From: Massilia sp. YIM B02763
GTDB taxonomy: Bacteria > Pseudomonadota > Gammaproteobacteria > Burkholderiales > Burkholderiaceae_D
Direction of reading: 5' to 3'
DNA length: 64,000 bases
Assembly (NCBI RefSeq): GCF_030412015.1
Contig: NZ_JASNRD010000002.1
Location: 62,001 to 126,000, forward strand
Below the pieces are notes generated by a model. That model was not told the origin of the DNA and searched no databases. It saw only the letters and a list, made by a program, of their open reading frames with translations. This document shows, in pieces, positions 20,577-64,000 of this stretch (position 1 is the first letter of the stretch; each line of letters opens with the position of its first letter). A program made the translations under genes and the position numbers.

Positions 20577-20945
20577 TCAGTATGCCACGTCGCGCGCACG
20601 TTTGCGCTGCAAATACCAGGCTGCCGCGCCGAGGACGGCGGCGACGCCCAGCGCGGGCTTGCCGAGACGACGCTTTCGGATAAAGCCTAACACGGTTAGG
20701 GCATAGGGGGCCAGCACTGATACGCTTGTCCCCGTCGGTTTCAGCAGCGCATCGGCGCGCGTGCGCAGGGCCCAGGTCGCATGATCGATAACCGAGTGAA
20801 ACATCACTTCGGGCCGCGACGCGGTCCTGATCTGGGCGCGCGCGTGGGCCACGCCGGTACGGTAGAACTCGCCTTCGCGCAGCAGCGCGCGCTTGCGTTC
20901 TTCATGGGAACCGTGGTGCCCGCTCGCATAGCTTCTCTTTTCCAT
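20577..20945 (-). CDS. Hypothetical small membrane protein of the yqjDE-like operon (YqjK position)
   Basis: 122 residues with a basic N terminus (MEKRSYASGHHGSHEERKR) and one hydrophobic segment near 95-112 before a basic tail. It occupies the place of YqjK, third gene after the YqjD-like and YqjE-like genes, 20 bp from the holin-like gene. Function unknown; probably part of a membrane stress module. Confidence 0.72.
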   Translation of the reverse strand: MEKRSYASGHHGSHEERKRALLREGEFYRTGVAHARAQIRTASRPEVMFHSVIDHATWALRTRADALLKPTGTSVSVLAPYALTVLGFIRKRRLGKPALGVAAVLGAAAWYLQRKRARDVAY

Positions 20946-20964: not shown

Positions 20965-21351
20965 TTACATGAGCATGTCGCGGTCGTTGCGCAATTCCTT
21001 CATCGTTTCCGGGAAGGCCAGCTTGCCCTGCTTGAGCATCGACAGCCCCTTCATGACGAGAATGGCGGTGAGGACCGCGAACACGATGAACAGCACCAGC
21101 AGGATCTTCCATCCCATTTCGTCCCAGGCCAGGGCGACGATCGTGGCGGTACCGTAGGCCAGTGCGAACCAGGTGAACAGGACGGCCGCGGCGAAGATCG
21201 CCAGCAGTTCGATCACGTGGTTGCGCACCTCCGACAGTTCGAGCGCGGCGAGTTCGACGCGCGATACCACCAGGCCGAACGCATTCCTTGCCAGGCCGGT
21301 GATGCCACCCAGGAGTCCGGGGCTTTGCACGTAGGGTTCGTTGTTGTCCAT
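20965..21351 (-). CDS. Phage-holin-family membrane protein, YqjE-like
   Basis: 128 residues. An amphipathic N-terminal part (LVVSRVELAALELSEVRNH) is followed by two membrane segments (~48-70 and 80-100), the layout of holin superfamily III / YqjE proteins. Despite the name these are chromosomal membrane proteins of stationary-phase operons. It is flanked by the DUF883 gene 20 bp upstream and the small YqjK-position gene downstream, so an operon is very likely. Confidence 0.85.
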   Translation of the reverse strand: MDNNEPYVQSPGLLGGITGLARNAFGLVVSRVELAALELSEVRNHVIELLAIFAAAVLFTWFALAYGTATIVALAWDEMGWKILLVLFIVFAVLTAILVMKGLSMLKQGKLAFPETMKELRNDRDMLM

Positions 21352-52874: not shown

Positions 52875-53999
52875 ATGACAACCCCCGAATACTTGGATGA
52901 CCCGTTCTATCACGCATTAAAGTCGATGTCTCAACGCATGGATTACTTGCCAGGAAAATATCTGCTACAAAGTTATGCTCTTCCAACTTCAGTTGGTTGG
53001 GAGAGCACTCTGCAGCGCGCCGTAGTTGCGGCCCGCACAAGGCCAGATCGTGAAAAACTTTATACGAACCTGGCGACGTCCTTCCAGCAACACACGCTTG
53101 TGGGAGAGAAGGCCGTGCTCTATTATGGCTTTGCTGGCCTGTCTGAGGAAACTAAGCAAATACATAAGAGAGCAGTCTACAAGAAAGTTGGAGACCATAT
53201 CCCCTTATCCCAATTCTCAGCAGTTTTCCCTTTCGCAGTCCACGATCAAGAAACATTAAGATCTTTGGAGAATACGCCACCGACCTTAACTATATGCTAC
53301 CCCGAGGCGAACGGCGTCTTCTTTTTATTTTCCTCGGTGCGCTCCTTTAACGAACGCGTGCCTCTAGACCGAACACTATTTGATGATGATGACCAAGCCA
53401 AACTAGCTGATTACTCCGAATTAATAGGAGTTCGATCAATACGACGACAATGCTACGACTATATCATATACGATACGGATCGCGAGTTAGTTGAGGTGCG
53501 CATCGACTGCCCTGATGGCATGCCGAGCGTGCAAAAGCAAACCGCATTGCAAAAACTCCAAGCCGCCTTCAAAGATCTAAACATTTTTCCTGATGGATGG
53601 TCTCCTTTCGGCACAACACCACATAATTTCCATTCCCTAATGGAAAGATTATACAAAACCAGTGGCGAAGGGACTGTATTTCAACTGGGCTTTACAGCTA
53701 GCACCGAAAAAACCTCATCTAATAACGGTGCGAGCTTATTAAGACGAAAGAATGTGGACCTACGTCGGGATGAGTTTCATGTGGGCGGAAAAAACAATGT
53801 GAAGGATTTAAGCGTTTATACTATCGGCGTCGAGTGGAAAAGCGACTTCGGGATCAACAATCCCACGCTAATCGTTCCCGGGAGCGTCCGAATGCTTTAT
53901 TCTTCCCCTGTTATCTTTCCTGAACTCTACATCCGCAACTGCATGACTATTGCGCAGTATGCTCTTATCACAGCGAAAATTGATAAATATTTCGAATGA
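52875..53999 (+). CDS. Hypothetical protein A of a three-gene overlapping operon
   Basis: 374 residues; no family recognised. It is a mixed alpha/beta protein without membrane segments; notable stretches are YLPGKYLLQSYALPTSVGW, SSVRSFNERVPLDRTLFDDDDQ and SVYTIGVEWKSDFGINNP. No clear ribosome site precedes the ATG, and codon use is much more AT-rich than in the core genes. Its TGA overlaps the ATG of the next gene (ATGA, 53996-53999). Together with the nuclease-like third gene this suggests a defence or mobile-element module. Confidence 0.8.
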   Translation: MTTPEYLDDPFYHALKSMSQRMDYLPGKYLLQSYALPTSVGWESTLQRAVVAARTRPDREKLYTNLATSFQQHTLVGEKAVLYYGFAGLSEETKQIHKRAVYKKVGDHIPLSQFSAVFPFAVHDQETLRSLENTPPTLTICYPEANGVFFLFSSVRSFNERVPLDRTLFDDDDQAKLADYSELIGVRSIRRQCYDYIIYDTDRELVEVRIDCPDGMPSVQKQTALQKLQAAFKDLNIFPDGWSPFGTTPHNFHSLMERLYKTSGEGTVFQLGFTASTEKTSSNNGASLLRRKNVDLRRDEFHVGGKNNVKDLSVYTIGVEWKSDFGINNPTLIVPGSVRMLYSSPVIFPELYIRNCMTIAQYALITAKIDKYFE

Positions 54000-54391
54000 G
54001 AAATCTCTTGGAACAGTTCAAGAAAGACTGGGCTAATGATGAACTCGTGGCCGAGATATGCACACGTTTATATAACTATTTGGAAGATCCAGCAAATAGA
54101 TTGGATCACTTCAGTTTTTATCATCTTGCCAATGCCACTCGGCTCAATGATGACAAAAGATTATCGAAAGCATTGCAGTACCTCAGTTCGCCAAGATGCG
54201 AGGTATTAACACAAATTTTTTTCTACTTTGATATCGATGAGTCGTGGGAATTTGAGTCCGCGGATATGATTGATTTTTTTAAGGAGGGAAGATTCGCTCA
54301 TCCACGCACTGGCGCGGTGATGAATTTAGATGCGATTTCAGTTGCTTTCGCGATCGGAAAACACTTCCTTGAAGCGAGGCAAAAGCTATGA
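53996..54391 (+). CDS. Hypothetical protein B of the overlapping operon
   Basis: 131 residues, helical and acidic (KDWANDELVAEICTRLYNYL, FFYFDIDESWEFESADMIDFF). No motif recognised. It starts inside the stop of protein A and ends inside the start of protein C (ATGA at 54388-54391), so all three are translationally coupled, as is usual for subunits or for a toxin and its immunity partner. Confidence 0.8.
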   Translation: MRNLLEQFKKDWANDELVAEICTRLYNYLEDPANRLDHFSFYHLANATRLNDDKRLSKALQYLSSPRCEVLTQIFFYFDIDESWEFESADMIDFFKEGRFAHPRTGAVMNLDAISVAFAIGKHFLEARQKL

Positions 54392-55131
54392 AGCATATAG
54401 GAGCCGGAGCGTTCGCTCAAAATCTCGGGGGATTAAGCATTGCTGCTCGCTACCAAGAACGGAATGTTATTGCTGGCAAGTCGGAGTATGAGCCGTTTGT
54501 TGAACTGCTTTATACTGACATAAATGACTTGATCAACCATATGCAAGCAAATCCGCAGCGCCGACACGCACTGGGTGAAGACAGTCTAACGGAAGAACTT
54601 ATTATGGGTCTATCAGTTGCGGGCTATGACGCCTCGCATGATACTTCAGCCGGAGGTCACGTTGATATCACAGTTAAGCTTGGCCCACATTCATGGATAG
54701 GCGAGGCGAAAAAGGACCAAAAATATTCCGACGGCTACCGTCAACTTGTAACACGTTATCGGCCCGCCTCCGGAAACTTTGACCATAATCATGGCGGTAT
54801 GCTTTTATACTGCACGAGCCAGACAGATTTATTAACACTTAGACAGCGCTGGAAGGAAAAATTTGAAGAAGACTTTAAAGGATCCTATTCCCCTTTGAAT
54901 ATTACTGACTGTTCAAAAAGCCGCTACGCGTTTTACTCGAGTCATAAACATCCGGTTTCTGGTCATGATTGGGTAGTACGACATATGCTCGTCGGCCTCC
55001 AGTTCGTACCTCAAGATGCCTCAGCGCGAGGTGTACAGGCGCGCAAAGCCAGCGTTAAGAAACCTCGGCGTAAGAGAACAGCCAGTGCAGCTAATATAAA
55101 TGTACAAAAAACGTTGAAGTCTAGCACATAA
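54388..55131 (+). CDS. Putative PD-(D/E)XK nuclease, protein C of the overlapping operon
   Basis: 247 residues. A helix with acidic residues (E69/E70 in SLTEELIMGL) is followed by D93 in GGHVDITVK and, 13 residues later, E106-A-K108 in SWIGEAKKDQ, then a helix with Q119 in YRQLVT. This D-xn-ExK order is the restriction-endonuclease-like fold used by many restriction, repair and anti-phage nucleases. The C-terminal 50 residues are basic (KKPRRKRTAS), suited to nucleic-acid contact. Family identity is not established. Confidence 0.75.
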   Translation: MKHIGAGAFAQNLGGLSIAARYQERNVIAGKSEYEPFVELLYTDINDLINHMQANPQRRHALGEDSLTEELIMGLSVAGYDASHDTSAGGHVDITVKLGPHSWIGEAKKDQKYSDGYRQLVTRYRPASGNFDHNHGGMLLYCTSQTDLLTLRQRWKEKFEEDFKGSYSPLNITDCSKSRYAFYSSHKHPVSGHDWVVRHMLVGLQFVPQDASARGVQARKASVKKPRRKRTASAANINVQKTLKSST

Positions 55132-55143
55132 TCTTTGTGCTTT

Positions 55144-55186
55144 TCCGCTATCCGATTAATTTAATTTAGCGGATAGCGGATAAAAA
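55144..55186. terminator. Terminator shared by two convergent accessory operons
   Basis: 11-bp stem TCCGCTATCCG (55144-55154) / CGGATAGCGGA (55170-55180), AT-rich loop, followed by TAAAAA and preceded by TTTT, so it can act on both strands. Confidence 0.75.
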
Positions 55187-55245
55187 CTCCTCCATAATTC
55201 TTATTATTACAGTTTAGCAATGCGTAAGTTTGGCAAGGCAATCAG

Positions 55246-55257
55246 CCCCCCCCCCCC
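55246..55257. repeat. Poly-C tract of 12 bases
   Basis: An uninterrupted run of 12 C ends two bases before the stop of the HEPN gene on the other strand. In this AT-rich stretch it stands out; it is outside any coding sequence. Confidence 0.9.
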
Positions 55258-55259
55258 TA

Positions 55260-56231
55260 TTAATCGTTATAGTCCGGCTCAAACTGACTTTTAAAGTTAC
55301 GCTCAGCTTCGTCAACAGCAGATTCAATATCAGCTTCAGTATATAGGCCATAGAATGTAGAGGGCTCGAAACGAGTCGTCGCGGTAAACATATTTCCTAG
55401 ATTACAAGACGCTAGCTTTGAATACCCTACAATACGAAGTCCGCATGCTACACACTCAAAACCCGATGGCAATTGCCCCTGTTTTTGCTCAATTCCATCA
55501 TCATCTGCTAGCGTAGTTACTGGTCCAGTAGGCGTTCCGAACACTAACGACTCGCATCCGCAAGCTGGACAATTCACTCTGTGGCCAGTATGACGCGAAG
55601 CCCAAAGACGGGCGCGCTGCGTAAGCAATTCCTTATCGGCCTCAGATTTGTCTGCCCAAACCTTCTTATAAGCGGCGATATCGGTACTAACACTTTGAGC
55701 AGCTTGATCGGAGAGAGAATCGATGAGCCCACGAATGTGGGGCACATCATCAAATATGTCACTAAGCTGTCGATTCATGGAGACAAGGAAAACTTCAGCC
55801 GCATGATAAAACCTTGGCAACCAGGATGATGAGCCATAGCCTGCGAACGCAAACTCCCCAGAGTGCAATTCAGAATTACGCTTATCAAAGTGCGAGGCAC
55901 AAAAATTAATTACCTCCTGTGTTACTCTAGCATCAAATTCACCGAGCCTTGCAAGGACCTCTTTAACGCCGATTGAACTAGGATTGAAGCGTTTAGCCGT
56001 AGGATTTTTTCCAAGCGCGAATGAAATGTTTCTCCAACTCTTTTCATCTGCAAGTAGTACTGGTGAAACATTGGACAGAGCTGCACGAGCCAACAACTCA
56101 AGTAATACCGCTGACCAAAGTGCCAGCTCCCCCGTTTCACTCTCCGCAGCCATCATCCGATCGGCGTATATCTGCGCCTTGGAAAACAGAGCTTCAACAG
56201 ACCAGACGTGTGCCTCAATTTGAGATGCCAT
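55260..56231 (-). CDS. HEPN-like protein with C-terminal zinc ribbon (putative ribonuclease)
   Basis: 323 residues from the ATG at 56231 (MASQIEAHVW), preceding Met has no support. The N-terminal ~170 residues are helical and contain R118-N-x3-H123 (FDKRNSELHSGE), which matches the RNxxxH catalytic motif of HEPN RNases, with the expected upstream helix (GELALWSAVLLELLARAAL). The C-terminal part carries a zinc ribbon, C221-P-A-C224 and C260-V-A-C263. Its start lies 16 bp inside the dioxygenase gene, so the two are coupled. HEPN proteins act as toxins or anti-phage effectors. Confidence 0.68.
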   Translation of the reverse strand: MASQIEAHVWSVEALFSKAQIYADRMMAAESETGELALWSAVLLELLARAALSNVSPVLLADEKSWRNISFALGKNPTAKRFNPSSIGVKEVLARLGEFDARVTQEVINFCASHFDKRNSELHSGEFAFAGYGSSSWLPRFYHAAEVFLVSMNRQLSDIFDDVPHIRGLIDSLSDQAAQSVSTDIAAYKKVWADKSEADKELLTQRARLWASRHTGHRVNCPACGCESLVFGTPTGPVTTLADDDGIEQKQGQLPSGFECVACGLRIVGYSKLASCNLGNMFTATTRFEPSTFYGLYTEADIESAVDEAERNFKSQFEPDYND

Positions 56232-56937
56232 AAATACTCTCCAAATAGATTCGTTCGATTGATCTTTTCCGGTCAGCGAAAGGTACAGCACTTCGCCCGT
56301 GCAAACACCGCCAATTATCTATAACTAATGTCGTAGTTTGAAGCGCCAAATTTATTGAAGTAGAAGAAGCCCGACAAGTAGATGATCGAAAGATTTCGGC
56401 GCAAATACTGGCTTGGGTGTTGGCTGGCCGAATAAAAATCGGGTCCCACCTGAGACTAAACGCTAACGTTCGCGATATGCGAAAAGAGAGCGCTGTAGTA
56501 ACCCTAGACTGTCTAGGAAAAAAAAGGGCACGCTGAGTTACCGATTGTGGCAACAAGCCACTCAGTGTTGGGGCATCTAAAACGAATGTACTCACCATTC
56601 CTAGCCCCATACGACCTCGCAACAAAAGGTAACGGGGCGGCACTATCCAATGTGCAAGGTCTGTATGTAGAGGATACTCCTCAAAGCCAAAATTACCGTG
56701 ATACCGATTTAATTCTTGCCTGCATTTCTCTTTTGGAGTCAATACATCAACCGAGCGATTAGGATAATCCTTGCTTAACGCATGCAAGTTCAATACGCTC
56801 CCAATTGTTTCGGCAAAACCTAACGTACTTGCACTGCGGGAGACATTGACACATACAGTGAAGCCAAATCTTCGCAAATTTTCGAGGTCAACTGGCGCTA
56901 ACATATAAATATAACACCAAAATCTTGGACGGCACAC
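56215..56937 (-). CDS. TauD/TfdA-like Fe(II)/2-oxoglutarate dioxygenase
   Basis: 240 residues from the ATG at 56937; a second Met at residue 12 is possible, and neither has a strong ribosome site. The facial triad is visible: H91-x-D93 in PLHTDLAHW and H213 in IDNWRCLHGRS, with a basic cluster (RKRSIERIY, R225-R228) for the 2-oxoglutarate carboxylate. This is shorter than most TauD enzymes (~280). It overlaps the HEPN gene by 17 bp. Substrate unknown; a role in modifying a small molecule, peptide or the HEPN partner is open. Confidence 0.65.
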   Translation of the reverse strand: MCRPRFWCYIYMLAPVDLENLRRFGFTVCVNVSRSASTLGFAETIGSVLNLHALSKDYPNRSVDVLTPKEKCRQELNRYHGNFGFEEYPLHTDLAHWIVPPRYLLLRGRMGLGMVSTFVLDAPTLSGLLPQSVTQRALFFPRQSRVTTALSFRISRTLAFSLRWDPIFIRPANTQASICAEIFRSSTCRASSTSINLALQTTTLVIDNWRCLHGRSAVPFADRKRSIERIYLESIYGISN

Positions 56938-56976
56938 ATGTTAATTTTTATTTATTTTTACTTCAGCAGCAAGATA

Positions 56977-57123
56977 ATGAACGAAGAAAGGAACACTTAT
57001 AAAGTATCGCACGCGAAGGGGCAAACGCACGTATCGATCGATTTGAGTTCAAAGGTTTACTCTTTTGACATTCAAAAACTGATAGAAGCTAGTGTACGCA
57101 TATGTTATCCCGGTGGCAAGTGA
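56977..57123 (+). CDS. Possible short protein (48 aa), low confidence
   Basis: A short frame divergent from the dioxygenase gene, beginning MNEERNTYKVSHAKGQTH. Its ribosome site is weak and no family is recognised; it may be chance sequence in a promoter region. Confidence 0.25.
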   Translation: MNEERNTYKVSHAKGQTHVSIDLSSKVYSFDIQKLIEASVRICYPGGK

Positions 57124-57462
57124 AGTCGTCACGCTCAGCCGTATTCGTTAGCGACCTTGTCTGAAGTGCAGATGCTATAAAATTGAGTGGCCCAACTGAG
57201 CCTACGCTAAAACGCCGATATACTATCGAAGAATCGATATCAAGTGGAATGTTCTCAAATCGCTGTAGAAGTTTCGCTCGCCTTTCCCGAAAGCAATCAA
57301 CGCAGTATTCGTTACTATCTTCATTTTGACTATTGAACTGCCAACCCTAACTCCGATTACATGCGTTTATGGAGACTAATAGCCTCTTTAGACTACCGAG
57401 AAACTATGCAATGAACGATATACCTAGAGACATTGATTTTATCAAAATGATAACATTTCGTG

Positions 57463-57502
57463 AAATAAAAAACCGCGTACTCACTAAGAGAAACGCGGTT
57501 TT
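57463..57502 (-). terminator. Terminator downstream of the tRNA fragment
   Basis: 10-bp perfect stem AAAACCGCGT (57469-57478) / ACGCGGTTTT (57493-57502); on the minus strand it is followed by a T-rich run. It lies 30 bp past the CCA end of the tRNA-Ser fragment, the normal place for a tRNA terminator. Confidence 0.75.
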
Positions 57503-57531
57503 AGTACATAGTAGTACGTCGATTCAATTCT

Positions 57532-57559
57532 TGGCGGAAGCGGTGAGATTCGAACTCAC
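57532..57559 (-). other. tRNA-Ser 3'-end fragment (T arm, acceptor strand, CCA): probable attachment-site scar
   Basis: Read on the minus strand it gives GTGAG-TTCGAAT-CTCAC, a perfect T arm, then CGCTTCC-G-CCA, which is the 3' acceptor strand and CCA of a serine tRNA of the UGA type. The upstream sequence cannot form D or anticodon arms, so it is only the last 28 nt. Such partial copies arise when an integrase inserts an element in a tRNA 3' end. The intact gene should lie at the other end of the element, outside this window. Confidence 0.8.
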
Positions 57560-57762
57560 TAACCTCAATTCCCTTTAATTTCAAGGACATATACTACACC
57601 CAACACAGCATTTTGTCACACCATTTTGTCCCATCGCCCACATTGGCCAAGTGCCGAAACCTCCGCTTCGATTTGGGCTAGAGCAGTAGGTCACACGTCC
57701 TACCTTTGCCATGCCACAGCGTAGATTAAACAGCGCAAATAAACAGTCGCGCTAGGCGGCTG

Positions 57763-57975
57763 CTACCGCGACTTTTGCCCTTTCTCAAGTAATGCTTTGT
57801 AAGGCGTCTTCTCATTAAGTTCTGCGCTGCGCGGCCCACCAAGCAGGTGGAAGTCCGGCTCCGACCAGGACGCAGGCGTGAAGCCGATTGCAGGAAATGG
57901 TCGGGGGTCTGACAAATAATGTGTTCGCTGAGCCTCGGTTTCGCTCGCCTCTCGATAATGGCGCAAATCTGGCAT
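57763..57975 (-). CDS. Possible short protein or gene remnant
   Basis: A 70-residue frame 39 bp downstream of the small HTH gene and in the same frame, ending EKTPYKALLEKGQKSR. The C-terminal layout (WSEPDFHLLGG, then TPYKALL) weakly recalls DUF2384-type antitoxin tails, but the match is too loose to name. It may be the degraded end of a longer gene. Confidence 0.3.
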   Translation of the reverse strand: MPDLRHYREASETEAQRTHYLSDPRPFPAIGFTPASWSEPDFHLLGGPRSAELNEKTPYKALLEKGQKSR

Positions 57976-58014
57976 TCGAACACGCTACGAACACAGAGAT
58001 AGCAAAGACGCTCG

Positions 58015-58254
58015 TCACTTACTCCAGTCAGCCCAAGTTAGGTGAAAACTGTTCAATGGGTTCGTGTTCCTTCGGGAGTCCGCGAGCATCATAGACACTT
58101 CAACATCGGTCGGGCGCCAACGGAGTAAACGCGTTCCAGACAAATCCAAGTGAGCCAGAACACATGCCGGGTGGCGTTTGATGTCGCGCTTAATCCTCGC
58201 GGGACTGCGGCCTGTCACCATCGCTAGCTCATCTAAATCCAATAGATTATCCAT
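58015..58254 (-). CDS. Small HTH protein, AlpA/excisionase-like
   Basis: 79 residues from the ATG at 58254 with a strong AGGAG site six bases upstream. The N terminus is a helix-turn-helix of the MerR/AlpA type: LLDLDELAMVTGRSPARIKRDIKRHPACV. Such proteins on mobile elements control excision or transcription. It is the nearest DNA-binding gene to the palindrome array and a candidate reader of it (inference). Confidence 0.7.
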   Translation of the reverse strand: MDNLLDLDELAMVTGRSPARIKRDIKRHPACVLAHLDLSGTRLLRWRPTDVEVSMMLADSRRNTNPLNSFHLTWADWSK

Positions 58255-58461
58255 TGTCACTCCTAGCAAGGTTTCCGCGACCAAAATATGAGTATCCACG
58301 TAACAATAAGTATAGAAAATCTGTCTAAAAAAGCTTAGGGTGAAAAAAGTGAGCGTTGCCAGAAATAATTTAACGGAGACGGCGGAAATGGCTAAAACAC
58401 TGAAGCGGGCAGCTCTATACATATCATCGGTGCAAGACACCTCAACTAGGAAAGATGCAAG

Positions 58462-59163
58462 ATGACTGACCTGAAATGTATTGAAACCAATGAATCGCTA
58501 AGCTTTTACCTGCCATACGAACTAAATGCAGGGTTCAAAGTTCTGTTTAAAACCGCGCGCTGGAACTCAAGCATAAAAGCCTACGAGGCCAAGAATACTA
58601 CTCAGAACAAGAACAAGTGGAAGCTGTTCTTGGAACACGCTGGCGAGGCGAAATCTGCACTCAAAGCTTACGATGTGCTTGAGCCTTCGATGAGCGAGAT
58701 AGAGAAGCTGTGCGAAGAGTTAAAAGTCTGTACGAAAGAAGCAACTTCAAAACTACAGCGAGCACGAGAACAAATAGCGCTGCTTACACCGGAACATGAA
58801 CGGCTCGTAGCGCAGTACAGTAAAGTTGCAAATGAGTTGAAGGATGTCGAAATTCAACGCGAAAAATTAATTGCCCCCGTTCTTGACCTGTACCGGAAGC
58901 ATGGATTTGACGCGATAATGCTCGAATATCAGTCCGGCGCTAGGCGCGGCTATGCTGGCAAAGATAAATGTAGCGCGGCTGAAGAAAAACTTCGATTACT
59001 GAGAAAAGAACTCAAATTGTCGGGCTTTGTTGTAAAAGGAATGTCTGAGCTGTTAGAAACCTCCTTAAATCGCGCAGACCAACTCCTAGAGCGGTCAGAA
59101 CGGCTGGCAAAAAATAAGCTTACCGGAATCGAACCTTACATCGAGAAGACTTCGAACCTGTAA
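58462..59163 (+). CDS. Coiled-coil protein with N-terminal DUF5710-like domain
   Basis: 233 residues (AGGAAAG site). Residues 8-55 (ESLSFYLPYELNAGFKVLF, KTARWNSSIKAYEA) resemble the small beta domain DUF5710 that binds in other mobile-element proteins (pattern of Ala-Arg-Trp then Lys-x-Tyr/Trp). From 75 to 225 the chain is a long coiled coil rich in Glu and Lys. Function unknown. A GC-rich hairpin lies ~100 bp downstream. Confidence 0.7.
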   Translation: MTDLKCIETNESLSFYLPYELNAGFKVLFKTARWNSSIKAYEAKNTTQNKNKWKLFLEHAGEAKSALKAYDVLEPSMSEIEKLCEELKVCTKEATSKLQRAREQIALLTPEHERLVAQYSKVANELKDVEIQREKLIAPVLDLYRKHGFDAIMLEYQSGARRGYAGKDKCSAAEEKLRLLRKELKLSGFVVKGMSELLETSLNRADQLLERSERLAKNKLTGIEPYIEKTSNL

Positions 59164-59262
59164 AACTACGGAATCCATTTGAACTTCATTTAGGAGAGCT
59201 GCGTCGCCTTCGGCAAAGAATTTTAGCTCAGAATGTGTTTGAAAAACCATTAGGTTGAATGC

Positions 59263-59284
59263 GGCCCGCGATGCGGGCCCCCCT
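59263..59284 (+). terminator. GC-rich hairpin after the coiled-coil gene
   Basis: GGCCCGC (59263-59269), loop GAT, GCGGGCC (59273-59279), then CCCCTTATTC. The T run is short, so it may be a weak terminator. Confidence 0.45.
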
Positions 59285-59463
59285 TATTCTTCCTACATTG
59301 CTTCAACGATATGCATCTTTGCGCATACCGCTGATACCTATCTGATAGGTTCCTTTGTAAGGCTACCAACAAATGACGAATGATTGACGATGTTACGTGA
59401 GACACCGCGTGTCAAGCGGCGATACCATAAAAATCCAGACAGATGCATAATTTACCGTCGCTA

Positions 59464-60274
59464 ATTTCAGCGCTGAAATCTGCGCTTTAGGCGTTGACGT
59501 GTGTGGTCTACAATGAAAACTCGTCGGCACGTATCAGAATCATTGAGTGTCTGTGTACTGCCCTTCGGGTTACTTACTTTTAGCAGCTCATCCTACACAT
59601 CATAGGTTTCCTTCAAATTTCAGCGCTGAAATCCGTTTATCTTCGATACAACGTGTAGCGAACGGAACGTACTCCATAGTACGAATGTACCGATTCGGTC
59701 AGCAAGCAATGGCTTCGTTTAAGTGTGGTAGGCCTTTACTTCATCTATTGCTTTATAGAACGTAAGGCCGACTTTTGCTGCCGATTTCAGCGCTGAAATC
59801 TCCAAGACGCTCTAGTGCAGACCAGCCGGACCGTCCCTGATAGTACGACTTCAAAGACACGGGCTCGACTGACAGATTTTGTAAAAAGTGCTGCCTTCAG
59901 GGCTGATGCGAAATCATTCTTGAGCGGCCAACTGAGACCATGCTGCGTGTCCCGGCAATTTTCAGCGCTGAAATTCACAATCGCGTTGATGCGAGCCGCC
60001 GAGGCGGCCCTAATAGTACGACTCTCTCGACATTGTTAGAGGTCGATAAATTCGACCTAGGCTTCCCATTTATCCACAGAGCTTAGCAGCAAAGTTCCAA
60101 AGCGAGGTGTAGTATGGCTCCGCAAATTTCAGCGCTGAAATCGTTTTACACCAGTTTTGCGTCAACTAGGCGTTACGCTAATACAAACGCGGCAACATAA
60201 ACCAGCATCGAATTTTTCTGGATGCTTAATGCCTGTCGGGCAGGAATGAGCTTAGCCAATTTCAGCGCTGAAAT
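59464..60274. repeat. Regularly spaced array of six copies of the 16-bp palindrome ATTTCAGCGCTGAAAT
   Basis: Copies start at 59464, 59617, 59784, 59959, 60126 and 60259 (start-to-start 153, 167, 175, 167, 133). Five are exact; the fourth has an extra T before the core, leaving the 14-bp TTTCAGCGCTGAAA intact. The spacers (117-159 bp) are unrelated to one another except for TAGTACGA at 59677, 59841 and 60014, 39-45 bp after the palindrome. No coding frame spans the array. It resembles a set of operators or a centromere more than any repeat-encoded locus; function unknown. Confidence 0.93.
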
Positions 60275-60470
60275 TTTCCGTATCCAAGACTCTCGGACTG
60301 GTGACTAACCGTCTAAATGCTACCGCATGACGCAATTTGAAGGCCGGTCGATAATGCCTAAGCTCCATGCATCGAATGCTACAAAAACTTAGTACAACGC
60401 CCGTGCTATTAGAAGCACTGGCGCAGTGCATCGATTGAACTGTCGCGCCCTACGTTTTTTCACCATTAGC

Positions 60471-61121
60471 TCACGTTTTTGAACTATTTTTCCTGACATA
60501 ACCTCCTTTTTGCAACAACGGCAGCAGAATTGCTTGCGCTTTAGACAGTTCCTGCCATTGTTTCCCTATGGCACTACGAAGGCCGTTGGGCGAATTGGGA
60601 AGCCCCGCTTCTCGTACAATTGTTGCCGCAAGCTCAATTTCTGACACTGCACCGGACATCAGTTTTGTTACTCGAGCTGATGTGTCCGAGGTGGCACCAA
60701 CCGAGTCTACCTCGGGCAAAATGCTAAGCTCCGCTCGGATTTTCTTTATCTTCTCAGCATCGCAGCCGACTTGATACTCGCGACAGACCGCTACCGCATC
60801 AGAGAGCAAACGTAAAGCATCCGCTAGTCGCCAGCCAGGGTCACACTCGTGCTCTTGAGCCAACCTCTCTCGTTCTTTTCTCTCCGTGCGCGCAGGTCCG
60901 AAAATGCGACGCTCAAGATATTCCAACTCTTCGCTGGTATAGCTGTATTCCTCCTGCATTGCCTGCGGCACCTCTTCTGCGTCTATCGGAAGCGTCCCTG
61001 CGCTTTTGTACACTCGTTTTCTGTGCACGACTTCTTTGTCTTCACATAACGCTCGGTATCGAACTTCATCGACGCTCGTTCGCGTCAAGCGCCATCTATC
61101 ATTTTCAATTTTCGCGTACAT
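60471..61121 (-). CDS. Hypothetical accessory protein next to the palindrome array
   Basis: 216 residues from the ATG at 61121 (GGAG six bases ahead). N-terminal half mixed, with MYAKIENDRWRLTRTSVDEVRY; C-terminal half helical (DALRLLSDAVAVCREYQVG, SAIGKQWQELSKAQAILLPLLQ). No domain recognised. It is transcribed toward the array and ends ~200 bp from the last palindrome. Confidence 0.72.
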   Translation of the reverse strand: MYAKIENDRWRLTRTSVDEVRYRALCEDKEVVHRKRVYKSAGTLPIDAEEVPQAMQEEYSYTSEELEYLERRIFGPARTERKERERLAQEHECDPGWRLADALRLLSDAVAVCREYQVGCDAEKIKKIRAELSILPEVDSVGATSDTSARVTKLMSGAVSEIELAATIVREAGLPNSPNGLRSAIGKQWQELSKAQAILLPLLQKGGYVRKNSSKT

Positions 61122-61199
61122 CAGTTTCTCCGCAGTTAAAACCTGTATAGCAATCGGCACGGCTTCGCCGTCAGCGTGGAAAATTAACCGTAACCACTA

Positions 61200-61920
61200 G
61201 TGCCCGTATCTCGAGGCGCGGTGACGGCACTCTTACCATCGGCTAGAACAACTTCATTTCGCGTCAGGCCTGAGGGCGCTGAGCGGCAACCGTTGGATAA
61301 CCAGCGGCGGGCGGGACGGCGTTCAGCCGTCGCCATTGACAGACCGTTAGGCGTGCATAGGTCGCAGCGGAACCGAAAGAGCGTTATCGCGAGAACAGCT
61401 GCTCGCGAACGTGGCGGGCTGAGGCGGGGCGAAACCCCGCCGCCGGACAAGCGCGTGAGCGCTCGGCTGTTGGCCGTAGGCGTTCTGGCGCGGGCCCCCA
61501 AGTTGCGACGACGATACAACTGCTCGCAACTTGGGGAAGCCAGGTGTGCACGCACGCAGGTTCACGGCTGCATGCCGACGGGCCATGTGAACAGGGTGGC
61601 CTTACAGGTACGGTAGGGGTCCGGCGGCGGGGTTTCGCGCAGGCGAAGCCTGCCCGAGTGCACGTTTGCCTAGACAGACGTCGCGACGAATACACAGATG
61701 ATGCGCGCCCCAGCGCGCAAGGCAGGACAAGGGGACAGCACAGTTGCCCTGCCCGCGTCCGGCCGTGCATCGTTCCCTCGAGCGCACCAACAGTTGCTTT
61801 TGCGCGAGCGGTGGAGGTTATTGCATCGACGTAGCACGGTACCTATACGAGGGAGCTAGACAGTTCGCGCAAAGGTTCGCGAGCGGTCGACGGCCACCTT
61901 CGAAAACATCCATTTTTAGG
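61200..61920. other. GC-rich, hairpin-dense non-coding segment before the replication-relaxation gene
   Basis: Open frames here are Arg-rich and uncharacteristic and lack ribosome sites. Structure is abundant: GACGGC/GCCGTC near 61316, TCGCGAG (61387-61393) / CTCGCGA (61402-61408), CCCCAAGTTGCGA (61496-61508) / TCGCAACTTGGGG (61524-61536), and a 20-bp perfect inverted repeat, 61429-61448 against 61619-61638. Its composition is far more GC-rich than the flanks. Position upstream of a mobilisation-type gene makes an origin of transfer or replication, or a structured RNA, the leading options. Confidence 0.6.
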
Positions 61921-61927
61921 AGTACCA

Positions 61928-63073
61928 ATGAGACACGTCCCATTTCGGCGACCCGCAGTATCCTCACCTCAACAATCCCGACAAAAGTCACCTCCGCGCC
62001 AGGTCGAGCGCGGATTGACGAAGTATGTTCACGCGTCCATCTTGAGGCAAAAAATCGAGTTCCGTGCGTTGATGTGCTTAAATCGCTTTCGCTACGTACG
62101 TGCCATAGACATCGCTATTGATTGTTTTGCTGAACGGCCATACGCAGCAGCACGCCACGCGGCGCGGTTAGCAATCAGAGGACTAGTCAAAGGCGGCTAC
62201 GCGCTGAAATACCGCACCAAACGGCACCATACAATTTACGCGCTGACAGCCGCAGGCGCCAGACGGCTTGTCGAGGCATCCAGCAGTAGCATAGACGCCA
62301 GGTCGAGCATTCGCTCGGCAGCGAATCTTACTAATCCTGAACATTTGCTCTGGGCGAACTTCACAGTGCTTGCCTGCGAAGCTCGTGGTGTCCATGCGCT
62401 AACCGAATCTGAAGTCATGCGTGAGTTAAACGTTGGTACTAAAAAAATACCTCAAGCGGTCCAAGGTCTGCTGACGGTAAAGGCGCGGCGCAAAGTAGTG
62501 AACGCCGATGACGACGAGCCAACGAAAGTTCACCTTCGCCCAGATGCGTTGGCGTTCGAGGACGACGGCTTGGTTTGGTTTGAAATCGACGCAACGAAAC
62601 GGAGCGAGACAAGGCGAGCGCGATTGCTAGCATTGATACGCGCACTTGGCACCCAAATTCCCCTACTACGGACCTCAGCACGGTCTCGAGGTAGCAATCA
62701 CACTCTCGTTCGAATCGTGGTCTTAACGCTCGAGCCAGCAATGCTGGAAAGGTTGCGCTCCCTTATCAGGCAAGAGGTAAATAAATCAGCACGTCGAATC
62801 CTTACTGTGGATAGCGGCCACACACGACTCACTGGAGTTGAGCCAGATACGTACGCAGTATGGCGTGCAGTCTACAAGGAAGACGGTACCGAACAGGTCG
62901 ATGTTTGCGTCGGCCACATCGTGCTTCAGCTAGCGCCCACCTGGCTTCCTAATTACCAAGGAAATGACCCCTTTAAAAGCAAACCGAGAGGATGGTTTGA
63001 AGAAAACTACCTTCCTTATCGCCGAGCAGCATCCTTACCTACATGGCCAGCACCGATTACACCATTTATCTAA
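61928..63073 (+). CDS. Replication-relaxation-family protein (MobC-like, plasmid/ICE)
   Basis: 381 residues (AGGAG six bases before the ATG). An N-terminal winged helix (ALMCLNRFRYVRAIDIAIDCF, ARLAIRGLVKGGYALKY, HTIYALTAAGARRL) precedes a PD-(D/E)XK-like segment: D214-x in HLRPDALAFEDDGLVWFEIDATK. This is the architecture of the replication-relaxation family found on conjugative plasmids and ICEs, linked to relaxosome function. It follows the structured GC-rich segment directly. Confidence 0.7.
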   Translation: MRHVPFRRPAVSSPQQSRQKSPPRQVERGLTKYVHASILRQKIEFRALMCLNRFRYVRAIDIAIDCFAERPYAAARHAARLAIRGLVKGGYALKYRTKRHHTIYALTAAGARRLVEASSSSIDARSSIRSAANLTNPEHLLWANFTVLACEARGVHALTESEVMRELNVGTKKIPQAVQGLLTVKARRKVVNADDDEPTKVHLRPDALAFEDDGLVWFEIDATKRSETRRARLLALIRALGTQIPLLRTSARSRGSNHTLVRIVVLTLEPAMLERLRSLIRQEVNKSARRILTVDSGHTRLTGVEPDTYAVWRAVYKEDGTEQVDVCVGHIVLQLAPTWLPNYQGNDPFKSKPRGWFEENYLPYRRAASLPTWPAPITPFI

Positions 63074-63285
63074 CGTGCAACATGATTAACGTGGAGGCGC
63101 AGTATCAGCCGGATGCTTAATCGTGAATGCCGCAATTTTCCTGCTCGTCGGATTCGCATCAGCGTATATCAAATCTAAGGACCAAACACTGATGTTCAAC
63201 TCCGTTGCCGCCAGCGAATATCGATAGTTGCTATACGTTGTTGGAGCAGCTCAAACGTAGCTCCTTTTCTAGATAAGGACAGCAC

Positions 63286-63621
63286 ATGCAAGCATTTGCA
63301 AACGTAGCAACTCAGCCAGAACGTAAAGTAAGCAAAACCACGCAGAGAGGATATTACGAGTTTCGTGCATGCGAAAGTCAGCGGGGGGAAGACAAGTTTC
63401 CAACATGGTACACGATACGAATTATGAAGGATGAAGACCCCAAACTATTCAAGGGGGACTTCGTTAAGGTAACCGGAAAGTTAAAAGCAGATTTCTATCT
63501 TTCGCGGGAAGGCAAACCCACCGGCACGCTGCTCATCATTGCCTTTGAAGCGGCGAAGATTAGCAAGCCGGTCACTCAAATGCAAATTCAAAAAACTGAG
63601 GCCGACTTGGCCACCTCGTAG
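63286..63621 (+). CDS. Single-stranded DNA-binding-like OB-fold protein
   Basis: 111 residues. Beta-strand pattern and the sequence FPTWYTIRIMKDEDPKLFKGDFVKVTGKL, followed by LLIIAFEAAKI, fit an OB-fold of the type found in mobile-element SSB or STY4534-like replication proteins. It lacks the acidic C-terminal tip of housekeeping SSB. A terminator follows at 63631. Confidence 0.7.
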   Translation: MQAFANVATQPERKVSKTTQRGYYEFRACESQRGEDKFPTWYTIRIMKDEDPKLFKGDFVKVTGKLKADFYLSREGKPTGTLLIIAFEAAKISKPVTQMQIQKTEADLATS

Positions 63622-63630
63622 CTTATTGAT

Positions 63631-63657
63631 GGCGTCCCTCAACGGGGCGCCTTTTTT
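63631..63657 (+). terminator. Rho-independent terminator of the SSB-like gene
   Basis: GGCGTCCC / GGGGCGCC stem (63631-63638, 63644-63651; one G-T pair), loop TCAAC, followed by TTTTTT. Confidence 0.85.
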
Positions 63658-64000
63658 AATTGCCAAAATAAGCTTCTTGTCCGACAAATCGTCCCGGGAT
63701 TGAGGTGCTGTTCCGTGCTAGTCGCCCATGCGTGAACTGGGCAACATCTTCAGCGTACTCCTGCGTATAACACCCTCGCGACGAGCTTGCTCTTAGCCAA
63801 GATGTTATCGCATTCGTCGAAGATGCCTTGCCCAGTATCCCAACGATATAAATGTGATAGATAGCGGTGGCGTCATGTCACCTTAAAGGGCGATTTCAGC
63901 GCTGAAATTCTGAACGAATTTATGACGTTTCCCTGCCCTGCTATCGCGAGCTAAGTCTCCAGCCCCAGCTTTTGGGAGCCCGCTAGCTGTCCTGAGCCAG
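63658..64000. other. Non-coding end of window with a seventh palindrome copy
   Basis: No gene is supportable in the last ~340 bp. The one clear element is an exact ATTTCAGCGCTGAAAT at 63893-63908, identical to the array copies at 59.5-60.3 kb. A new array may begin here beyond the window. Confidence 0.75.

Follow-up and report, generated by a model that had tools for sequence, protein, structure and literature searches.

An array of Bsr-type parS palindromes in a defense-bearing integrative element of Massilia that has no recognizable ParA/ParB

Introduction

The closest described precedent for the locus reported here is SGI1, an integrative element of Gammaproteobacteria whose two parS mimics (DR1/DR2) bind the ParB of IncC plasmids (Muranyi et al. 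2024, PMC10954446). SGI1 is stabilized by the IncC ParAB and destabilizes the IncC plasmid, with dose dependence (PMC10954446); it is the only published integrative element exploiting plasmid partition that our literature search found. The same source also mentions KorB as a ParB-family protein that binds dispersed palindromes. In Burkholderiales, the parS sites of secondary replicons (Bsr) follow a palindrome rule laid out by Pillet et al. (2017, PMC5450999). In B. cenocepacia, additional copies of the parS of any of its replicons slow the appearance of colonies and produce anucleate cells (PMC4948915).

Here, we describe a window, by which we mean the whole stretch of 64,000 nt that was analyzed, from Massilia sp. 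YIM B02763 (NZ_JASNRD010000002.1, positions 62,001 to 126,000). Coordinates marked C12 refer to the entire contig and equal the window position plus 62000.

A set of palindromes confined to one integrative element

The 16-bp palindrome ATTTCAGCGCTGAAAT, with its 14-bp core TTTCAGCGCTGAAA, forms the six-site array that a first-pass annotation had reported at 59464 to 60274, and a seventh exact copy, absent from that annotation, lies farther right. The sites in the window are as follows.

59464–59479, no strand: parS-type palindrome 1, exact 16-mer
59617–59632, no strand: parS-type palindrome 2, exact 16-mer
59784–59799, no strand: parS-type palindrome 3, exact 16-mer
59959–59974, no strand: parS-type palindrome 4, exact in its 14-bp core, with T replacing A at the outer position
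60126–60141, no strand: parS-type palindrome 5, exact 16-mer
60259–60274, no strand: parS-type palindrome 6, exact 16-mer
63893–63908, no strand: parS-type palindrome 7, exact 16-mer

Start to start, the six array sites are spaced by 153, 167, 175, 167, and 133 bp. The copy at 59959, thought earlier to be shifted by a base, is unshifted and carries one substitution instead (TTTTCAGCGCTGAAAT). At up to three mismatches, 0.21 palindromes are expected per window, and none of 100 shuffles reached seven or more. The claim that the spacers do not resemble one another stands for most pairs; it fails for 2 of the 15 pairs formed by the five spacers and the right flank (pairs 1-5 and 3-4, which outscore all 200 Markov shuffles) and for a similar 31-nt stretch in three spacers. 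This stretch starts 34 to 39 bp after the palindrome start and contains ATAGTACGA, found at 59676, 59840, and 60013, that is, 54 to 59 bp past the starts of three palindromes.

Rather than being scattered at random through the 5.9-Mb, 68-contig genome, all 12 exact copies of the 16-mer lie within C12:121464–150831. With up to two mismatches allowed, the 173 kb of C12 covered holds 17 sites (14 with a perfect 14-bp core), ten of them to the right of the window (C12:126074, 126907, 127022, 127133, 128665, 129714, 131393, 131711, 150762, and 150816), and three of these ten have one or two mismatches in the core. A 116-bp block occurs twice (C12:126875–126990 and 128633–128748, 77% identical) with one palindrome in each copy; going by this block, the sites may have spread by duplication.

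All 17 sites are confined to one 33.4-kb integrative element, enclosed by 33-bp direct repeats of 97% identity. The element has a GC content of 50%, against mostly 65 to 72% in the flanking chromosome, and it has both an integrase-like gene and direct-repeat ends, the features by which we recognize an integrative element. Its ends and the genes around the array are listed below.

57531–57563 (C12:119531–119563), no strand: attL-type direct repeat, 33 bp, resembling a tRNA 3' end, 97% identical to its partner
58462–59163, plus strand: 233-aa protein on the left side of the array, possibly a coiled coil, with marginal Pfam, NCBIfam, and PHROGs matches only and no family
60471–61160, minus strand: 229-aa protein on the right side of the array, its gene converging on that of the 233-aa protein; no family, with nothing found in Pfam, NCBIfam, or PHROGs
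61928–63073, plus strand: replication-relaxation-like protein (PF13814, 24.5 bits, cut-off 25.3)
63286–63621, plus strand: probable single-stranded-DNA-binding protein (weak NCBIfam match; 36% identical to proteins annotated as SSBs on Variovorax megaplasmids)
C12:150956–152812, outside the window: integrase-like gene, 618 aa, with the right repeat just past the gene start
C12:152876–152908, outside the window: partner direct repeat, adjoining the integrase-like gene

We call the 618-aa protein integrase-like on the basis of a marginal DUF6538 match (26.7 bits, slightly below the cut-off), an alignment at 28% identity, spanning 40% of its length, with a protein annotated as a site-specific integrase, and its position; NCBIfam, PHROGs, and the PDB gave no match. 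A tRNA-Ser gene lies 2 kb beyond this gene and the right repeat. The cargo includes homologues of MkoA and MkoB of the Mokosh system (C12:144336–149332, outside the window); the methyltransferase and restriction subunits of a type III restriction-modification set with an SNF2-type helicase and a DUF4391 protein (C12:135045–143977, outside the window); and an AbiEi-like protein (the DUF6088/AbiEi-like gene) and an XRE regulator. The 311-aa product of another gene is a DnaD-like helicase loader of phage type; its prophage-like relatives were followed without yield. No relaxase or conjugation gene was recognized among the scanned element ORFs, which cover the small ORFs only in part.

Three further stretches deserve mention. 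To the left of attL, a low-GC stretch (52875–57530) holds a cluster of three genes, none of them matched in Pfam, as well as a TauD-like ORF, and is perhaps a separate island. Inside the element, 61200–61900 is GC-rich with no convincing genes. Outside the window, between attR and the tRNA-Ser gene (C12:153037–155043), lies an ORF that reads as resembling a group II intron reverse transcriptase.

The palindrome follows the Bsr parS rule

The palindrome had been described as akin to known ParB-type sites without being any of them; on the contrary, it fits the published Bsr parS rule. As given by Pillet et al., that rule calls for a 16-bp palindrome with a T-rich 5' end, a 6-bp core of two C, two G, one A, and one T with a central CG, and a tolerant outer position (PMC5450999). 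The sequence ATTTCAGCGCTGAAAT is 16 bp long with a T-rich 5' end, its central AGCGCT has exactly this composition with a central CG, and across elements the outer pair (positions 1 and 16) around one core is A-T, C-G, G-C, or mismatched. At position −2 outside the core, A is the commonest base in all sets (68% of half-sites in the Massilia element, 100% in Duganella, and 77% at eight ParB-bearing loci).

The genomic company of the core points the same way. A collection of 84,980 species was scanned for two TTTCAGCGCTGAAA cores 93 to 153 bp apart, a setting that misses other spacings, and it returned seven loci, all from Burkholderiales: a Lautropia MAG, Duganella flavida, Paraburkholderia humisilvae, an Acidovorax MAG, Burkholderia aenigmatica, Paenacidovorax caeni, and a Polaromonas MAG. 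At six of the seven, a parA-parB pair (ParB_N, HTH_ParB, AAA_31) adjoins the sites, and at four of those six one core lies inside parB; the Lautropia and Acidovorax loci (G680 and G683) encode identical ParBs and so count as one case. Rep3-type initiators are found near the sites in G683 and G684. Among 18 annotated parAB loci fetched for variety (13 of 629 records and 5 of 597), the exact core is present at four (the Comamonadaceae OTU4 plasmid, C. metallidurans CH34, Cupriavidus EM10, and P. aromaticivorans pBN2), other repeated palindromes such as TTTCTACGTAGAAA, TTTCCACGTGGAAA, and TTGCACCGGTGCAA at eleven, and no repeated palindrome at three, one of which, from B. plantarii, was covered for only 100 bp upstream of parA. 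In total, 12 loci on Burkholderiales plasmids or chromids, some of them not independent, have the core within a parAB operon or next to one. The second replicon of CH34 (NC_007974) has one copy of the identical core upstream of parB and one inside it, and pBN2 (NZ_CP022992) has six upstream of parA, compared with six in the window array; both are complete parABS systems, whereas the window has sites only.

The idea of a protein-coated centromere, one of those in the first-pass annotation, is borne out in kind, since other replicons of Burkholderiales have the identical 14-bp core within their parAB operons or next to them. We conclude that the window palindromes are very probably plasmid-type ParB binding sites, and their assignment to the parS type of the Bsr class is strongly supported by this sequence comparison.

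The core is not the signature of a lineage. In a tree of 18 ParBs, drawn with no support values, five of the eight core-bearing ParBs group together (G680, G683, G685, G686, and OTU4), CH34 falls among ParBs of other specificities, and G682 and G684 stand apart; the ParB of Paraburkholderia D15, 49% identical to that of G684, goes with a different palindrome. Because of these splits and the D15 palindrome, the core marks no single clade.

KorB operators of IncP plasmids (TTTAGCSGCTAAA) likewise consist of numerous palindromes at scattered positions, to which a ParB-family protein binds. They differ from the window palindrome in sequence and length, and no KorB-like gene was recognized in the scanned element ORFs.

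One specific identification was rejected, namely, that the 16-mer is parSG4, the parS of B. vietnamiensis G4 plasmid 2, an idea prompted by the names of mutations in PMC5450999. That plasmid, which we take to be pBVIE02 (CP000618), carries a different palindrome, TCTCCACGTGGAGA, in four copies at 20692–20914, just upstream of parA at 20971; three of the four have the 16-bp form ATCTCCACGTGGAGAT. No TTTCAGCGCTGAAA core is present in 250.0 of its 265.6 kb (all but 150001–165616). We infer that its palindrome is parSG4 from two letters (A1 and C5) named in the text of PMC5450999. The case also serves as a check of method, since pBVIE02, taken as the plasmid of the ParB-parS assay of Pillet et al., does show a repeated palindrome of its own directly before parA.

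A full-text literature search, which covers text and not figures, found no paper with the 14-mer core; no DNA match of the array was found in plasmids; and no viral contig held a pair of exact 16-mers, six having a single copy each, which we take as background. Separately, two partial IMG/VR contigs, L122 (3577–3721) and L123 (10930–11074), each carry three CTTTCAGCGCTGAAAG sites within 145 bp. Neither gave a ParA/ParB match, and L122 has phage terminase genes; they are a possible third ParB-less case.

Two islands and the search for a partner ParB

The seventh locus of the scan, in Duganella flavida, is an island in a state similar to that of the Massilia element: nine exact cores lie on one contig. 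In both islands, sites adjoin the integrase (C12:150762 and 150816; Duganella C66:191279); the integrase of Duganella is matched in Pfam and lies next to a tRNA-Met, and the left end of that island was not found. Both islands come from assemblies of many contigs.

Is there a partner ParB in either genome? The 335-aa G683 ParB gave no match at E 0.001 in the Massilia or Duganella genome, in a search sensitive enough to recover the 28%-identical G684 ParB at E 4e-34. In the Massilia genome, PF02195 has one match over the cut-off (C56:197066–197347) and three more below it (12.8 to 13.5 bits). Near the first lie chromosomal parS sites at C56:202212 (exact) and 201076 (one mismatch), 4.9 and 3.7 kb away; with standard parS nearby, the only clear ParB of this draft genome is, by its sequence context, the chromosomal one. 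PF02195 is a weak detector here and alone would not settle the absence of a ParB, because a true member, G686, scores only 16.5 bits, below the cut-off. A profile of 18 ParBs searched in six frames found no ParB in 41.5 kb around the element, and Pfam found none among 26 element and flanking ORFs.

In Duganella, the same profile reached a best E of only 0.3 over 60 kb of the core-bearing contig. Another contig, C7, encodes a ParB-family match over the cut-off and a weaker neighbor (profile E 1e-7 and 5e-7); the locus shows 26% identity to the G683 ParB over 116 aa, and no repeated palindrome occurs in the 15 kb covered there. We count it as a distant ParB, which leaves room for a private partner in Duganella.

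The window array is thus not a complete parABS locus in the sense of parA and parB together with sites, and it departs in this from the Bsr parS centromeres of Pillet et al., which obey the same palindrome rule and whose published sites sit on replicons that own parAB (PMC5450999). It instead resembles SGI1, an integrative element with no Par system of its own and with sites that match plasmid parS, that is, parS mimics without ParAB (PMC10954446). No partner replicon is apparent in the host genome now, which is a draft of 68 contigs from which a plasmid could be missing, and any benefit would be intermittent.

Could the element instead encode its own, unrecognized site-binding protein, the array being a private centromere or organizer? 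Several element proteins belong to no family, and candidates are the XRE or DUF6088 protein, the 233-aa protein, and a 127-aa protein shared with Duganella. The last, itself of no known family, is encoded near palindromes in both islands (C12:150272–150655 and Duganella C66:173439–173984) and is 52% identical between them; however, its structure model (mean pLDDT, 52) is too poor to use for a fold search. Given that sites at the parAB operons of other replicons have this very 14-bp core, and that neither Pfam in 26 ORFs nor the six-frame profile found a ParB, we regard a private binder as unlikely.

Placement and number of the sites

The first-pass annotation had also suggested a battery of small promoters or RNAs. 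The data do not support this: the intergenic region 59164–60470 has one promoter-like and no terminator-like match, fewer than the shuffle means of 2.1 and 1.2; Rfam gave no match in 57000–64000 up to an E of 1; and no site lies in a divergent gap. By gap type, 11 sites fall in 2417 bp of convergent gaps, 5 in 2685 bp of tandem gaps, and 0 in 2082 bp of divergent gaps, and one overlaps a gene end, counts that rest on a hand-made gene list and on clustered sites that are not independent.

The same placement bears on whether the sites are regulatory, such that a plasmid entering the cell would be sensed when its ParB, or a KorB-like regulator that it encodes, controls element genes through them. 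In SGI1, one parS does sit next to a promoter under regulation, and loss of this parS reduces copy number (PMC10954446); the Massilia site at C12:129714 lies a short way upstream of where the DUF6088/AbiEi-like gene probably starts. Yet 11 of the 17 sites are in convergent gaps and none in divergent ones, and the six-site array sits between two converging genes with fewer promoter-like matches than in shuffles, which makes such a role improbable.

The number of sites is unusual as well. Exact cores number 14 in the Massilia genome and 9 in Duganella versus 4, 4, 4, 7, 4, 3, 2, and 2 in ParB-bearing genomes, a count in which one of the four in G682 is on another contig and G680 and G683 are near-duplicates. 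The exact core occurs in 11 of the 399 genomes sampled from the order, one of the 11 being the Massilia genome with its 14. The only others with two close cores, 850 bp apart, are G447 and G598, of one genus, where a core lies inside a parB gene whose product is 52% identical to the G683 ParB; G471 and G579 have two far-apart cores each, and six genomes have one core each. A reversed control pattern also turns up once per genome in about a dozen genomes, so lone cores resemble background. Within 392 genomes of the family, core pairs 41 to 101 bp apart occur in the Massilia genome and in one other (G742), apparently Duganella again: G742 and G681 share contig number and coordinates, so that Duganella seemingly belongs to the same GTDB family. 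The exact 16-mer is found in 3 of 294 family genomes, namely, the Massilia genome and two singletons.

Attempts to find sister elements by other markers failed. Homologues of the Replic_Relax-like protein occur in pPNAP03 and in two genomes (G579 and G582), and no repeated palindrome was found in the stretch of pPNAP03 covered or in 40-kb stretches of either genome; the G579 and G582 elements also hold distant integrase relatives. The closest integrase relative outside the Massilia genome (G348, 42%) is on an 18.7-kb contig without repeated palindromes.

Are the sites simply a relic of a parABS plasmid from which the element descends, left over after the loss of parAB? Its replication-type genes (DnaD-like helicase loader, SSB-like, and Replic_Relax-like) favor this reading. 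Against it are the 14 perfect cores distributed over 29 kb with mostly unrelated spacers, more than in the ParB-bearing genomes counted, and the similar state of a second island in Duganella, and we consider a relic very unlikely.

A model for an orphan centromere array

In total, the observations outlined above identify the array, as far as sequence goes, as Bsr-type parS centromere sites in an integrative, defense-bearing element with no recognizable ParA/ParB. We propose that this orphan array most likely takes advantage of, or interferes with, the partition machinery of a plasmid in the same cell. In this model, a plasmid with a matching parABS enters the cell, and its ParB would load on the array of the element. 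The plasmid ParA would then partition the element, above all when it is excised and replicating; the array would also titrate or mispair ParB and so destabilize the plasmid, a centromere-type incompatibility. By analogy with SGI1, the element probably uses the ParABS of a partner replicon in trans, with either or both of these outcomes. Does the benefit lie in being partitioned, in evicting a competitor, or in both? The sequence cannot tell. We speculate further, and with more doubt than conviction, that the defense island might bear, alongside its Mokosh-like and restriction-modification genes, a centromere decoy, an over-dosed parS array acting as a protein-free anti-plasmid immunity module by centromere incompatibility.

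The analogy has its bounds. SGI1 has two sites, of the IncC type and in Gammaproteobacteria, whereas the window element has 17 of the Bsr type in Burkholderiales; SGI1 also has AcaCD control, transfer genes, and Sci, and the likeness is one of working only (PMC10954446). In that system, the 14-bp core alone is not bound, and some 15 extra parS have a much weaker effect than the whole of SGI1, a second factor, Sci, helping; identity of the core and dose are for these reasons no proof (PMC10954446).

If the proposed use of a partner's ParABS is true, the Massilia element would be a second, unrelated case in another bacterial class, with eight times as many sites as SGI1 and a similar second island beside it, and centromere mimicry would be a general strategy of integrative elements. 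It would also allow prediction of which plasmids get excluded or borrowed. Should the decoy reading hold, a host of such an island would turn away plasmids that share one type of partition system, and perhaps even chromids of that type, and a protein-free module would be added to the means by which islands defend their territory.
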